Shown here in pieces: positions 45,461 to 63,997 of a stretch of 64,000 nucleotides of DNA; position 1 is the stretch's first letter, and every line of letters starts with the position of its first letter. The notes under the pieces are model-generated. The model was not told where the DNA came from. It saw only the letters and a program-made list of their open reading frames with translations, and searched no databases. This DNA comes from Piscinibacter lacus. GTDB lineage: Bacteria; Pseudomonadota; Gammaproteobacteria; Burkholderiales; Burkholderiaceae_C. The stretch is taken from positions 645,288 to 709,287 of the forward strand of contig NZ_JAERRA010000002.1 in assembly GCF_016735685.1 (NCBI RefSeq), in the 5' to 3' direction. The translations under genes were made by a program, and so were the position numbers.

Positions 45461-47548
45461 TCAGCCGCGCGGCGGCAGGCGCAGCTCCACCGCCCAGCCT
45501 TCTTCGGATGGCCCGCTGCTCAGGCGGGCGCCCAGGGCGGCGGCGCGCCGCTCCATGTTCGCCAGGCCCCGGCCCTTGTGCAGGCCTTCGGGCACGAAGT
45601 GCGGCAGGTCGCTGCCTTCGGCGAGCTGGCGGCGTTGCAGGCCGTTGTCGATCACGCTGAGGCAGACGCCGAGCGAGGGCGCCGGCTCGGTCTCGGCTTC
45701 GGGCGCGGCCCCGGTCTCCGGCGGATCGATGTCGCGGTCGGCCTCGGGCCGGGCGCCCTCGGTCCAGGGGGCGAGGACTCGCTCGGAAGGCGCCTCGCTC
45801 GGCAGCCGGGCCGAGGCCTCGGGCAGTTCAGGCGATTCCGGCGGCAGCGGCGCCAGGCGCAGCCACACGGTGCTGGCCTGGGCATGCTTGATGACATTGG
45901 TCAGGGCCTCGCGGACGATGCGCAGCACCTGCAGGGTGTCGGTGGCTGGCAGCGACCAGTCGATCACCGCATCGCTGGGCTGCCAGACCAGGCGGATGCC
46001 GGCCGCGCGCAGTGAGGGCTCGACCCGGAAGCGCAGCTCGGCCAGGGCCTCGACCAGCGGGCGACGGTCGGTTTCCAGGGAATCCAGCGCCAGCCGCAGC
46101 TCGACCAGGCAGTCGTCCAGCGCGGCGCGCAGCTCGCGCAGGGTCTCGGCGGGCGGCGGCGGGCCGGTTTCAGCGGGCAGGCGGCTGCCGGTCGGCGGGG
46201 TCGTCTCGGCCGTCTCGACCCGCTGCACTTGCTGGGTCAGGGCCATGGCGGCGACCAGGCGACCGCCTAGGCCGTCGTGCATCTCGCGCAGGATGCGGTC
46301 GCGCTCGGCGCGGGTGGCCTGCTCGCGTTCGCGCTCGCGCGCGCCGTCGAAGGCCCGGGCCAGCTCGGATTCCTTCTGCGCCACCCGCTCGGCCAGGTTG
46401 CGGTTGAGCGCCTGCAGGCCGCGGGCCGAATGGGCGAAGTCATCGACCACCGTCCAGGCCAGCACCGCCAGCAGGGCCAGGATGGTGTAGCGGCCCCAGG
46501 ACACGGCGCCGTAGTCGTACATCACCCGGAAGACCCAGAGATCGCGGGCGCCGACCACCAGGCAGGCCAGGGCCGCCACGGCAAGCAGCACGGCGGCGAG
46601 CTGGCGGTCGCGTGCGGCGCGCAGGATCAGCGCCCCGCCGACGAGGATCAACACCCCCTGGCTGCCCGCCAGCACCGCGGTGCGCAGACCGGGCTGCACG
46701 CTGAGCCAGCCCAGCACGGTCAGCACCAGGGCCACCACCGCCCAGCCGGCCAGCAGTTGGCGCGCGCGCGGTCCGTCGCGGCCCACCACGGCCAGGGCAT
46801 ACAAGCTCATCAGCACGACGAACCAGGGGTAGGACACCTGGAAGAGCACGGCCAGGATGGGCGACCAGGCCTCGCTGCCGCCCGGCTCGAAGGCCGTCAC
46901 CCGCCAGGCCCACAGCAAGCTGCCGACGCCGAAGCAGGCGTAGCCGAAATGCCGCACGCGCGAGGCCAGCAGCAGGGCCAGCGCGCCCATCACCGCGGCG
47001 GCCGCGCCCACCGCCCAGGCGCCGCGGCTCTGCAACTGGCCCAGGGCCACATGGCGCGGCTCCAGCAATTCCAGCGGGCCGACCCAGAGGCGCGACAGGC
47101 CGGCTTCGCGGCGCGGCTCGCCGTGCACCTCCAGCTCCAGCACATTGCCGCGGCTGCGCAGCAGGGCCGGCGGCAGGGCCACCAGGATGGGCTGCTGCGA
47201 GACATCGGGCAGGGGCTGGCGCTGGGTGCTGCCGAACTGGGCGATGGGCTCGCCATTGAGCACCACCCGCAGCACCAAACCGACGCGCGGGATGAAGAGC
47301 GCCGCCGGGCCGGCCTCCAGCGCGGCCTGTTCCAGGTCGATGCGGTAGCGCACGCCGCCTTCGCGCAGCGGTGCGCTGCGCTCCCAGGCATCGGGCAGGC
47401 GGGTCTCGCGCGGCGGCTCGCCGGGCAGCAGCAGGGTTGCGCGATCGACTTCCTGCACCAGCGGCCCGAGCGGCTCGGCCAAGCCGCTGCAGGCCGCCAG
47501 CATGCAGGCCAGCAGCAAGCCGGCCAGCCGACGCGCGATGCGCTTCAC
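45461..47548 (-). CDS. 7TM sensor histidine kinase with unusual ATPase-domain insertion
   Basis: Membrane kinase of 695 residues. It has a lipoprotein-like signal (LAAC at 17-20), an extracytoplasmic beta domain (~30-165), about seven membrane helices (~175-370) and a coiled coil. The phospho-acceptor His424 is in REMHDGLGG, as in HisKA_3-type kinases. The ATPase domain has the N box at EALTNVIKHA (Asn551) and the G boxes at VIDNG and GRGLANMERR. Between them, residues ~568-625 are a Pro/Glu/Ala-rich low-complexity insertion. The start is GTG 47548, overlapping the regulator's stop. It works with the adjacent response regulator. Confidence 0.9.
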   Translation of the reverse strand: MKRIARRLAGLLLACMLAACSGLAEPLGPLVQEVDRATLLLPGEPPRETRLPDAWERSAPLREGGVRYRIDLEQAALEAGPAALFIPRVGLVLRVVLNGEPIAQFGSTQRQPLPDVSQQPILVALPPALLRSRGNVLELEVHGEPRREAGLSRLWVGPLELLEPRHVALGQLQSRGAWAVGAAAAVMGALALLLASRVRHFGYACFGVGSLLWAWRVTAFEPGGSEAWSPILAVLFQVSYPWFVVLMSLYALAVVGRDGPRARQLLAGWAVVALVLTVLGWLSVQPGLRTAVLAGSQGVLILVGGALILRAARDRQLAAVLLAVAALACLVVGARDLWVFRVMYDYGAVSWGRYTILALLAVLAWTVVDDFAHSARGLQALNRNLAERVAQKESELARAFDGAREREREQATRAERDRILREMHDGLGGRLVAAMALTQQVQRVETAETTPPTGSRLPAETGPPPPAETLRELRAALDDCLVELRLALDSLETDRRPLVEALAELRFRVEPSLRAAGIRLVWQPSDAVIDWSLPATDTLQVLRIVREALTNVIKHAQASTVWLRLAPLPPESPELPEASARLPSEAPSERVLAPWTEGARPEADRDIDPPETGAAPEAETEPAPSLGVCLSVIDNGLQRRQLAEGSDLPHFVPEGLHKGRGLANMERRAAALGARLSSGPSEEGWAVELRLPPRG

Positions 47549-48270
47549 CGGCCGGCGTGGCGGTCGGTGCGCTGGCTGAGCTGCAACTTGCGGTAGACGT
47601 TGCGCACTTCCAGCGCCACACCGCGCTCGCTCAGGCCGAGGCGCTCGGCAATCTCCTCGGGCACGAAGCCCTGGGCGACCAGGCGCAGCACCTGCACCTC
47701 CAGGGCCGTCACCTCATGCCGGCTGGCGACCAGGGGGCCGTCCAGGCCCAGGCCGGTGTCGAAGCCGGGGTCGGTGTCCAGGCCGAGCAGGTCCAGGGCA
47801 TCGGGCGGCGCCGGTTCGACCGGTGCCGGCTCGGCACGGCCCTCGAAGCGCTTGAGCAACTGCCGCGCGATGGCCGGCGAGATCGGCGATTCGCCCCGCG
47901 CGGCCTGCTCGACGGCGACGACCAGCTCCTCGGTCGTGCATCCCTTGAGGAAGTAGCCGTCGGCACCCGCCTCGATCGCGCGCAGCACGCGGATCTCGTC
48001 GCCGAAGACCGAGAAGACCAGGATGTGCGGATGCCAGACGCCCTCGATGGCCGGGGCGGCGCTGAGCTCGGCGATCAGCTCGGTGCCGTCGCCATCGGGC
48101 AGGCCCAGGTCGGACAGCAGCACATCGGGGCGCAGGCTGGGCAGCTCCTCGCGCGCCTGCGCCAGCCGGGCGGCATGGCCGACGCAGCGCAGGCGGGCCG
48201 TCTGGTTCAGAGCCTCGCGCACATGCTGGGCAATCAGGGGATCGTCTTCGACCAGGTAAACCGTCAGCAC
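47545..48270 (-). CDS. LuxR-type (NarL family) response regulator
   Basis: DNA-binding response regulator of 241 residues. The receiver domain starts VYLVEDDPLIAQ with the phosphorylation Asp54 in LLSDLGLPDGDG and the conserved Lys in GADGYFLKG. A Pro/Asp-rich linker (residues ~147-180) leads to the LuxR helix-turn-helix with GFVPEEIAERLGLSERGV. The start is GTG 48270 with a good SD (GAGGAG) 5 bases upstream. The first gene of a two-gene operon with the kinase; target genes unknown. Confidence 0.93.
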   Translation of the reverse strand: MLTVYLVEDDPLIAQHVREALNQTARLRCVGHAARLAQAREELPSLRPDVLLSDLGLPDGDGTELIAELSAAPAIEGVWHPHILVFSVFGDEIRVLRAIEAGADGYFLKGCTTEELVVAVEQAARGESPISPAIARQLLKRFEGRAEPAPVEPAPPDALDLLGLDTDPGFDTGLGLDGPLVASRHEVTALEVQVLRLVAQGFVPEEIAERLGLSERGVALEVRNVYRKLQLSQRTDRHAGR

Positions 48271-48396: not shown

Positions 48397-48426
48397 CGGA
48401 CAGCCCCGCGGGGCTGCGGCTAAACT
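48397..48426 (+). promoter_or_regulatory. Probable sigma-70 promoter of metX leader
   Basis: A -35-like CGGACA (48397-48402) and a -10-like TAAACT (48421-48426) are separated by 18 bp, each matching 4 of 6 consensus bases. Transcription would start at about 48432, immediately at the 5' edge of the SAM-II aptamer, which supports the call. Confidence 0.5.
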
Positions 48427-48432
48427 CAAAGC

Positions 48433-48487
48433 ACAGCGCCGATTTGTTCCGGCTTGCGGGCGCTCAAGAAATGCAGCTAAACAGGGG
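48433..48487 (+). ncRNA. SAM-II riboswitch aptamer upstream of metX
   Basis: The order of blocks AGCGCC, GATTTG, CCGGCTTGC, GGGCGCT, AAGAAATGCAGCTAAA and CAGGGG agrees with the SAM-II (SAM-alpha) consensus, including the known element GATTTAACCG-TTGCAAGCGC-GCTAAA-AGGG of solved examples. P1 would pair AGCGCC with GGCGCT; the 3' A-rich strand and GGGG would form the pseudoknot with the GATTTGTTCC loop. It lies 75 bp before metX, a classical SAM-II target. Ligand binding should reduce metX expression. Confidence 0.9.
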
Positions 48488-48504
48488 CCGCGATCCCAGC
48501 ACCG

Positions 48505-48545
48505 CCCGGCCTCGCTAGCGCAGCGACGCCGGGTTTTCGTTTTTC
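48505..48545 (+). terminator. Intrinsic terminator of SAM-II leader
   Basis: An 11-bp stem interrupted by one C-C mismatch: CCCGGC/GCCGGG (48505-48510, 48528-48533) and TCGCT/AGCGA (48512-48516, 48522-48526), loop AGCGC, then TTTTCGTTTTT. An alternative pairing of GGCCG (48486-48490) with CGGCC (48507-48511) would block it and would compete with the aptamer's 3' GGGG, giving a SAM-dependent attenuator. Confidence 0.8.
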
Positions 48546-48561
48546 TGGACGCCTGAACACC

Positions 48562-49722
48562 GTGGATTTCCCGAGCAGCGTGGGCGAGGTGACGCCCCGG
48601 ACCCTCCGGCTCGACAGCCCCCTGCTGCTGCGCAGCGGGGCCTCGCTGGCGCCGGTCGACCTGGTCTACGAGACCTACGGCACGCTCAGCCCCGCGCGCG
48701 ACAACGCGGTGCTGGTCTGCCATGCCCTGAACGCCAGCCACCATGCCGCCGGCACCCACGCCGGCGTGGCACGCAGCAATGGCTGGTGGGACAACCTGAT
48801 CGGCCCGGGCAAACCGCTGGACACGCGGCGCTTCTTCGTGATCTGCATGAACAACCCGGGCTCCTGCTTCGGCTCGACCGGGCCGACGCATCCGAACCCG
48901 GCCACCGGCCAGCCCTGGGGCGCCGACTTCCCGGTGGTGCAGGTGGAGGACTGGGTCGATGCGCAGGCCCGGCTGCTCGATGCCCTGGGCATCGACACCC
49001 TGGCCGCGGTGATCGGCGGCAGCCTGGGCGGCATGCAGGCCCTGGCCTGGACGGTGCAGTACCCGGAGCGGGTCCGGCATGCGGCGGTGATCGCCTCGGC
49101 CCCGGCGCTGTCGGCGCAGAACATCGCCTTCAACGAGGTCGCGCGACGCGCCATCGTGACCGACCCCGACTTCTACGAAGGCCACTACCTGAGCCACGGC
49201 ACGGTGCCCAAGCGCGGCCTGCGCGTGGCGCGGATGATCGGCCACATCACCTACCTGTCCGACGACGTGATGGCCAGCAAGTTCGGCCGCGAGCTGCGCA
49301 ACGGCCACCTGGCCTACACGACCCAGGGCATCGAGTTCCAGGTCGAGAGCTACCTGCGCCACCAGGGCGACAAGTTCAGCGAGTACTTCGACGCGAACAC
49401 CTACCTGCTGATCACCCGCGCGCTCGACTACTTCGACCCGGCGCGCGCCCACGGCGGCTCGCTGCGCCGGGCGCTGGCCGCGGCGCGGGCCAAGTTCCTG
49501 GTCGTCAGCTTCACGACCGACTGGCGCTTCACGCCGCAGCGCTCGCGCGAGATCGTCAAGGCCCTGCTCGACAACCGGGCCGAGGTCAGCTACGCCGAGA
49601 TCGATGCGCCGCACGGCCACGACGCCTTCCTGATGGAGGACCCGCGCTACCACGGCGTGCTGCGCCAGTGGTTCGACCGCATGGCCCGGAGCCTGTCGGG
49701 CGCGAAGGAGTTGCAGGCATGA
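48562..49722 (+). CDS. metX: Homoserine O-acetyl/succinyltransferase
   Basis: Acylates homoserine in methionine synthesis. The alpha/beta hydrolase of 386 residues has the nucleophile motif [10 protein letters not shown], an Asp/His pair expected in VSFTTDWRF and [11 protein letters not shown], and LVYETYGTL near the start. MetX proteins may use acetyl- or succinyl-CoA; many proteobacterial MetX linked to metW use succinyl-CoA, so the acyl donor is open. GTG 48562 starts it, after the SAM-II leader. The stop overlaps metW (ATGA). Confidence 0.95.
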
Positions 49723-50303
49723 ATCCGCGCGGAGACTTCGAACAGATCGCCCGCATGGTGCCGGCCGGCGCCCATGTGCTGGACCTGGGCTGCGGCGACG
49801 GCAGCCTGCTGGCCCTGCTGCGCGAGACGCGCGGCTGCACCGGCTACGGCATTGAGCTTGACGATGCCAAGGTCGAGGCCTGCGTGGCCCGCGGCGTCAA
49901 CGTGATCCAGCGCAACCTGGACGAAGGCCTGTCGCTGTTCCAGGACAACGCCTTCGATGTGGTGCTCCAGCTCGAAACCCTGCAGCACCTGCGCCGCACC
50001 GAGCTGATGCTGCAAGAGACGGTGCGGGTCGGCCGCATCGGCATCGTCAGCTTCCCGAACTTCGCGCACTGGCCGAACCGGCTGCGGGTGCTGGCCGGCC
50101 GCATGCCGGTGACCCGGGCCCTGCCCTACCAGTGGTACGACACGCCCAACATCCGGGTCGGCACCTTCGCGGAGTTCGAGATCCTCGCCCGCCAGCAGGG
50201 GCTGCGGCTGCGCGAGGCCTTCGGGCTCGACGGCGGCCGGCGCATCGACTGGCGGCCCAATCTGCGCGCGCCGACCGCGGTCTTCAGCTTCGAGCGCGGC
50301 TGA
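49719..50303 (+). CDS. metW: Methionine biosynthesis protein MetW
   Basis: Methyltransferase-like protein of 194 residues with [16 protein letters not shown] (motif I) and the MetW-specific [19 protein letters not shown] and [20 protein letters not shown]. MetW acts with MetX in homoserine acylation in proteobacteria. ATG 49719 overlaps the metX stop, so the two are made together, under the same riboswitch. Confidence 0.96.
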
Positions 50304-63881: not shown

Positions 63882-63997
63882 AGCCTGACGATGTCCTACT
63901 TTCACACGGGCATCCGCACTATCATCGGCGCTGAGGTGTTTCACGGTCCTGTTCGGGATGGGAAGGGGTGGGACCACCTCGCTATGGTCGTCAGGCT
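63882..63997 (-). rRNA. rrf: 5S ribosomal RNA
   Basis: The minus strand reads AGCCTGACGACCATAGCGAG at the 5' end, then CCCGAACAGG and GGGCATCCGC-complementary internal segments typical of 5S rRNA, and ends CGTCAGGCT, which pairs with the 5' end. The 116-nt length is normal. As 5S is last in bacterial rRNA operons, the 23S gene should lie beyond the end of the window. Ends are accurate to about 2 nt. Confidence 0.96.

Follow-up and report, generated by a model that had tools for sequence, protein, structure and literature searches.

The metXW locus and its leader

The leader described here spans positions 48397-48562 (+ strand) of the window, the whole 64,000-nucleotide stretch of DNA that was analysed, and is situated between a divergent response-regulator gene (- strand) and metX (+ strand). 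The metX gene (48562-49722, +) encodes a homoserine O-acyltransferase and is followed by metW (49719-50303, +), whose product, a methionine biosynthesis protein, scores 234.2 bits with TIGR02081 (cut-off 189.5). An earlier reading made from the sequence alone (the sequence-only reading) had placed metX downstream of an aptamer, which the protein models confirm, and metX with metW makes a target in methionine/SAM synthesis, as is typical of SAM-II riboswitches. The product of metX scores 646.7 bits with the succinyl model NF047916 (cut-off 560) and 564.6 bits with the acetyl model NF001209 (cut-off 331), and falls under the cut-off of a further acetyl model, TIGR01392; the model name alone leaves doubt about which acyl donor the enzyme uses. 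Adjoining metXW at 45461-48270 (-) are the divergent NarL/MadR-like response regulator and a sensor histidine kinase, both of which score far under the cut-offs of named families. A 5S rRNA gene (63883-63995, -; 85.1 bits) lies at the edge of the window.

A SAM-II aptamer upstream of metX

Judged by its sequence and predicted structure, the element at 48433-48490 (+) is the aptamer of a SAM-II riboswitch and would be expected to bind SAM. When 401 bases are scanned permissively against the whole of Rfam, the model RF00521 (SAM_alpha, SAM-II) matches over its full length (model positions 1-79) at 48426-48503 on the + strand, with 35.9 bits and an E-value of 1.2e-6. The gathering cut-off of this model is 36, and because the score is short of it by 0.1 bit, the aptamer does not show up when the window is scanned with the Rfam defaults, which return the 5S rRNA only. 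The sequence-only reading had proposed to abandon the aptamer if a covariance model scored it below threshold. By this rule the claim narrowly fails, yet the match is full length at the E-value given. The Rfam gathering threshold is a curated convenience and no biological feature, and we think that the rule misleads here because members of the family usually score close to the cut-off or below it and because the runner-up in a whole-genome RF00521 search, in which this is the sole convincing match, is partial with an E-value of 0.2. That same runner-up is the ground on which a chance match is rejected.

In the predicted fold, the 5' strand of P1, AGCGCC (48435-48440, +), pairs with its 3' strand, GGCGCU (48459-48464, +). 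Between them lie the conserved GAUUUG of loop 1 (48441-48446, +), which fits the RF00521 consensus, and the two 5' parts of the P2 pseudoknot, namely CC (48449-48450, +), which pairs with G48484-G48485, and UUGC (48454-48457, +), which pairs with GCUAA (48476-48480) while leaving U48478 unpaired. We take this register of P2 to be that of the published SAM-II structure, and for UUGC it is in keeping with the sequence and the RF00521 match. All three aptamer blocks, GAUUUG, CUUGC, and GCUAAA, are present in the window.

Support for these helices comes from an alignment of the window with 43 diverse leaders of the family and order, chosen from 151 candidates by dissimilarity. The pattern used to pick them required exact GATTTG, CTTGC or ATTGC, and GCTAA, so that the invariance of these blocks is by construction, and the four UUGC/GCUAA pairs fixed in this way carry no covariation information. 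Across the 44 sequences, 94.5% of the cells of the P1 and P2 structure are paired, against at most 54.5% in versions slid along the alignment. Double-changed cells number 30, compared with 11.9 +/- 2.3 in shuffles and at most 6 in the slid controls, and covariation thus backs both the P1 helix and the P2 pseudoknot. The outer P1 pair is double-changed in 19/44 sequences, appearing as A-U, C-G, U-G, G-C, and U-A, and one pair of the CC/GG part of P2 is double-changed in 10/44. This CC/GG part is the weakest of the structure, with 70.5% of its cells paired and one P2 pair unpaired in 15/44. Counted as pairs with any double change, the alignment has 3 against 2.4 in shuffles, a value equalled in 213 of 500. 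A plain energy fold of the aptamer, a method that leaves out pseudoknots, is without P1 and no better than shuffles.

A covariance model built from the window and the 43 leaders (R1) scores 72.1 bits at 48433-48490 in the window, a figure that is partly by construction as R1 contains the window. Loci from other classes provide a test which, unlike R1 scores within the family and order, is not by construction: R1 recovers, at the positions given by RF00521 and with E-values from 7e-5 to 3e-12, each of the 30 best-scoring loci that the phylum search yielded, every one of which belongs to another class. With RF00521 itself these 30 loci score 65-88 bits, whereas the window is near or under the cut-off, and the P1 strands differ as well. 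P1 is GCGCC/GGCGC in 43/44 aligned sequences (6 of them with U for the last C) and CGUGG/CCACG (CGUGG/CCAC) in the 29 pattern-fitting loci of other classes. SAM-V has a SAM-II-like pseudoknot (PMC2704228), but it is described there as being without the final 3' pairing element and with other helix lengths, while the window matches RF00521 over its full length. The complete, block-by-block SAM-II match originally proposed is borne out by RF00521 together with the comparison with relatives.

Probable leader start and terminator

The -10-like element of the metX promoter is TAAACT (48421-48426, +), which corresponds in position to a TATACT-like box of relatives. Among 117 distinct leaders this A/T-rich box is enriched at -20 to -15 from GATTTG, with 0.31-0.89 bit per position. 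The -35 region shows no conservation across the same 117 leaders, and a promoter scan of the window found no promoter at the leader. Of the promoter suggested at 48397-48426, the -10 element stands, at the conserved box, while the -35 box at 48397 is rejected for want of conservation. The position of the box in relatives also supports the suggestion of a nearly minimal leader, and transcription probably begins near the edge of the aptamer. Just upstream of the -10 box is a perfect 16-base palindrome, CAGCCCCGCGGGGCTG (48401-48416); it was dropped as a candidate part of the switch, being absent from a leader of the same genus.

Downstream of the aptamer lies an intrinsic terminator hairpin (48504-48534, +; -21.4 kcal/mol), followed directly on its 3' side by the U-tract UUUUCGUUUUUC (48535-48546, +). 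Of 200 shuffles of the 51 bases at 48500-48550, 198 fold less well than the native sequence (z -2.54). The stretch 48480-48545 gives a z of -1.35, with 19 of 200 shuffles as good, and for longer stretches of the leader the shuffles fold about as well (z 0.25 and -0.16). A simple terminator scan of the window does not list the hairpin at 48504-48534, probably because of an internal mismatch in its stem.

Comparison with relatives draws on 123 leaders: the 30 best family loci, 76 of 80 named metX loci (themselves the best 80 of 578), 16 leaders hand-picked from the RF00521 matches in the family, among which is one same-genus leader, and the window itself. One locus from the window's own genome (L001) was dropped as a duplicate, and L002-L005 (chance matches) and L132 (filler) gave no match. 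A terminator is found within 150 bases of 116 of the 123 aptamers, including those of 73 among the 76 aptamer-bearing named metX loci. The finder returned none in the other 7 leaders, in two of which (L065 and L076) a hairpin and T-run missed by its rules are visible by eye. Terminators also follow 30/30 best-scoring loci of other families in the order, against 41/300 random 150-base stretches of the window, and 26/29 pattern-fitting other-class loci drawn from the 30 of the phylum search. The strong terminator and T-run said to separate the aptamer from metX are thus confirmed by the stability of the hairpin and its counterparts in relatives.

A second species of the genus shows which parts of this region are held constant. 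From the aptamer to the U-tract, 112/112 positions are identical, compared with 3/8 in the spacer between the -10 element and P1, 118/148 aligned columns in the region upstream, and 558/600 in the first 600 bases of metX.

A pairing that competes with aptamer and terminator

The 3' strand of P2 overlaps the sequence GGGGCCG (48484-48490, +), which is complementary to CGGCCUC (48507-48513, +) in the 5' arm of the terminator. The two strands of this putative antiterminator form 6 Watson-Crick pairs and 1 G-U pair, worth -9.7 kcal/mol as a hairpin alone and -13.0 kcal/mol in the best fold of the segment. The shorter pairing first noticed, GGCCG (48486-48490) with CGGCC (48507-48511), is present, and it lengthens to these 7 bp so as to include the G's at the 3' end of the aptamer. 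As the helix takes up the P2 3' strand as well as the 5' arm of the terminator, it is what an OFF attenuator needs. In folds of the growing transcript, the antiterminator is present up to 48525 and gone by 48530, where the terminator has taken its place.

Most relatives, although not all, have a counterpart of this helix. Leaders with other letters keep it as GGACACC/GGUGUCC (L047), GACGCC/GGCGUC (L042), or GGGGCC/GGCCUC (L041), and loci from other classes as GGCCGG/CCGGCC (L164) or AGACCGG/CCGGUCU (L172). In the 107 of the 123 leaders that are distinct and have a terminator, the first 10 bases after GCUAA were set against the terminator arm. At least 4 pairs are found in 98/107, with 68.8 expected from shuffled spacers, and at least 6 pairs in 71/107, with 36.5 expected. 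When partners are re-dealt among leaders, the observed mean of 12.9 compares with 11.9 +/- 0.24 and is reached in 0 of 1000 trials; both this control and that with shuffled spacers ignore kinship among leaders. Only 3 matched pairs are seen in 15/107 leaders of the re-dealing test, with Variovorax, Pseudacidovorax, and Ramlibacter contributing several. In some leaders (L006 and L019) this test has its anchor in the wrong place.

Probable control of metXW by premature termination

We consider it likely, and hold with good confidence, that this leader is a SAM-II riboswitch that turns metXW off through premature transcription termination. What the window shows, with counterparts in relatives, is an aptamer, a terminator, and a pairing that competes with both; SAM binding, a switch, its direction, and the start site are what we infer from them. 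RNA polymerase would start at about the edge of the aptamer. At low SAM, GGGGCCG of the P2 3' strand would pair with the 5' arm of the terminator, and transcription would run on into metX. When SAM is bound, the pseudoknot would hold G48484-G48485 on C48449-C48450 and the antiterminator would be lost. The loss of the antiterminator would allow the hairpin at 48504-48534 to form and transcription to stop in the U-tract near 48540-48546. That the arrangement of the leader predicts control of transcription had been suggested before, and comparison of this attenuator anatomy with relatives argues for it.

An attenuator may also be drawn with an antiterminator based on P1, in which CGGGCG (48457-48462) pairs with CGCCCG (48503-48508) and P1, not P2, is the competitor; we regard this version as unlikely. 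Its helix has six exact pairs and -7.5 kcal/mol across a 40-base loop, and is weaker here than the P2-based hairpin. Within the order, where P1 is so nearly invariant that it allows no covariation test, the terminator arm fits the P1 3' hexamer of its own clade better than that of the other clade in 100/107 leaders. When the two 3' strands are compared for their fit to the arm in these 107 leaders, P2 is the better in 67 and P1 in 33. The 26 other-class loci with a terminator include 19 distinct ones, and these show no such clade preference, the arm fitting its own P1 better in 9/19 with 2 ties; among the same 19 loci the P2 3' strand beats that of P1 in 17. In three distinct other-class loci (L163, L164, and L169) the terminator arm nonetheless forms 5 pairs with the P1 3' strand, and a similar pairing was a matter of speculation for regions 3 and 4 of the element described by Leyn et al. 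(PMC4239095). On these comparisons of sequence we prefer the P2-based antiterminator and keep the P1-based one as a rival.

It is more doubtful still that the aptamer binds SAM but acts on translation, alone or in addition, with the hairpin as a constitutive terminator that sets a low level of expression. There is a precedent for such an arrangement in S. meliloti metA, where a SAM-II aptamer is reported with an apparently unregulated terminator downstream (PMC9373788). In the present leader the metX start is 75 bases past the last G of the aptamer (48487), with the terminator between them, which makes direct masking unlikely. The match to the ribosome site is weak (-3.0 kcal/mol, equalled by 119 of 500 shuffles), and the P2 3' strand has its complement in the terminator arm both here and in most leaders examined. 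Finally, that this is a decayed SAM-II element which has lost SAM binding, as the 35.9 bits against a cut-off of 36 might suggest, is scarcely credible and was rejected, given the intact GAUUUG, CUUGC, and GCUAAA, the perfect identity to the second species beside a diverged flank, and the low RF00521 scores that are usual in the family (184 of 269 matching genomes are under the cut-off).

Termination through the P2-based antiterminator would place this leader beside the SAM-II riboswitches that work with terminators, such as S. meliloti metZ, with which it shares the aptamer blocks, P1 and the P2 pseudoknot, a promoter just before P1, a downstream terminator, and a target in the methionine pathway. 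In S. meliloti at high SAM, terminated metZ leader RNA goes up and metZ mRNA goes down, as reported by Scheuer et al. 2022 (PMC9373788).

Distribution and precedents

The element is common in related bacteria. RF00521 at an E-value of at most 0.01 matches 269/399 genomes of the family, with 85/399 above the cut-off, and 92/200 genomes of the order, 36 of them above it; at an E-value of at most 1e-4 it matches 55/299 genomes of the phylum. R1 at E-values up to 0.01 matches 184/200 family genomes, partly by construction as it holds family sequences, and MetX is found in 193/200 at E-values up to 1e-80. All these genome counts are samples, and the 30 loci fetched for each of the family, order, and phylum searches are the best scoring. 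The aptamer lies just upstream of metX, 49-230 bases before the matched start, in 76 of the 80 named loci (the best 80 of 578). The pattern finds no aptamer in the remaining four (L044, L058, L061, and L100), and R1 recovers that of L058, which brings the count to 77/80. This metX leader, from Ideonella azotifigens (L058:968-1046), has an insertion in the P1 region and keeps the core and a following hairpin with a T-run. One genome (G121) has three R1 matches, of which two, at C1:1655352-1657321, are some 2 kb from each other on opposite strands and well away from its metX.

The suggestion that a transcription-controlling SAM-II element would be unusual in a betaproteobacterium does not hold, given its frequency in the family and its precedents in the literature. 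SAM-II is, according to a 2007 survey, the aptamer with the most frequent link to terminators in alpha- and betaproteobacteria, and PMC2704228 gives Alpha-, Beta- and Gammaproteobacteria as the groups in which it is commonest. Corbino et al. 2005 (PMC1273637) describe many SAM-II elements as preceding putative terminators, with promoters usually just a few bases ahead of P1; one of their figure legends lists Bordetella bronchiseptica. The element is not novel; SAM-II is a known kind of riboswitch with a known mechanism. Taken alone, the present leader adds one more to a family in which SAM-II is common.

Relation to the metXZ element

An element of the same description has been reported under another name. 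Leyn et al. 2014 (PMC4239095), who used Rfam models, place SAM_alpha in Rhizobiales and Rhodobacterales only, and describe a new element, metXZ, found in the leader of metXW or of metZ in 35 betaproteobacterial genomes, among them 10/11 of Comamonadaceae and 3/3 of Alcaligenaceae. They give metXZ two helices that form a pseudoknot, terminators downstream, and what they suspect to be an antiterminator, propose that it arose in a betaproteobacterial ancestor, and treat it as distinct from SAM_alpha. A search of titles and the openings of abstracts on SAM-II or SAM_alpha in betaproteobacteria, with Burkholderiales, Burkholderia, and Ralstonia among them, found none that joins either name to metXZ, and Leyn et al. 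2014 is the one treatment of metXZ as a riboswitch that the literature search returned.

Compared by description, the element in the window and metXZ (PMC4239095) share a metXW leader, related betaproteobacterial hosts, two pseudoknotted helices, and a terminator downstream. On the strength of this description, as distinct from the published alignment, we hold it very probable that metXZ is SAM-II, missed at the Rfam cut-off; the large share of matching family genomes under that cut-off would explain how it was missed. If this is true, the ligand of metXZ is SAM, and its history is common with that of the other proteobacterial SAM-II riboswitches. The two can probably be merged; an orphan RNA element would then have its ligand, and the restriction of SAM_alpha to Rhizobiales and Rhodobacterales would be corrected. 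For genome annotation, the consequence is that the Rfam cut-off hides the element in more than two of every three matching genomes of the family sample (184/269).
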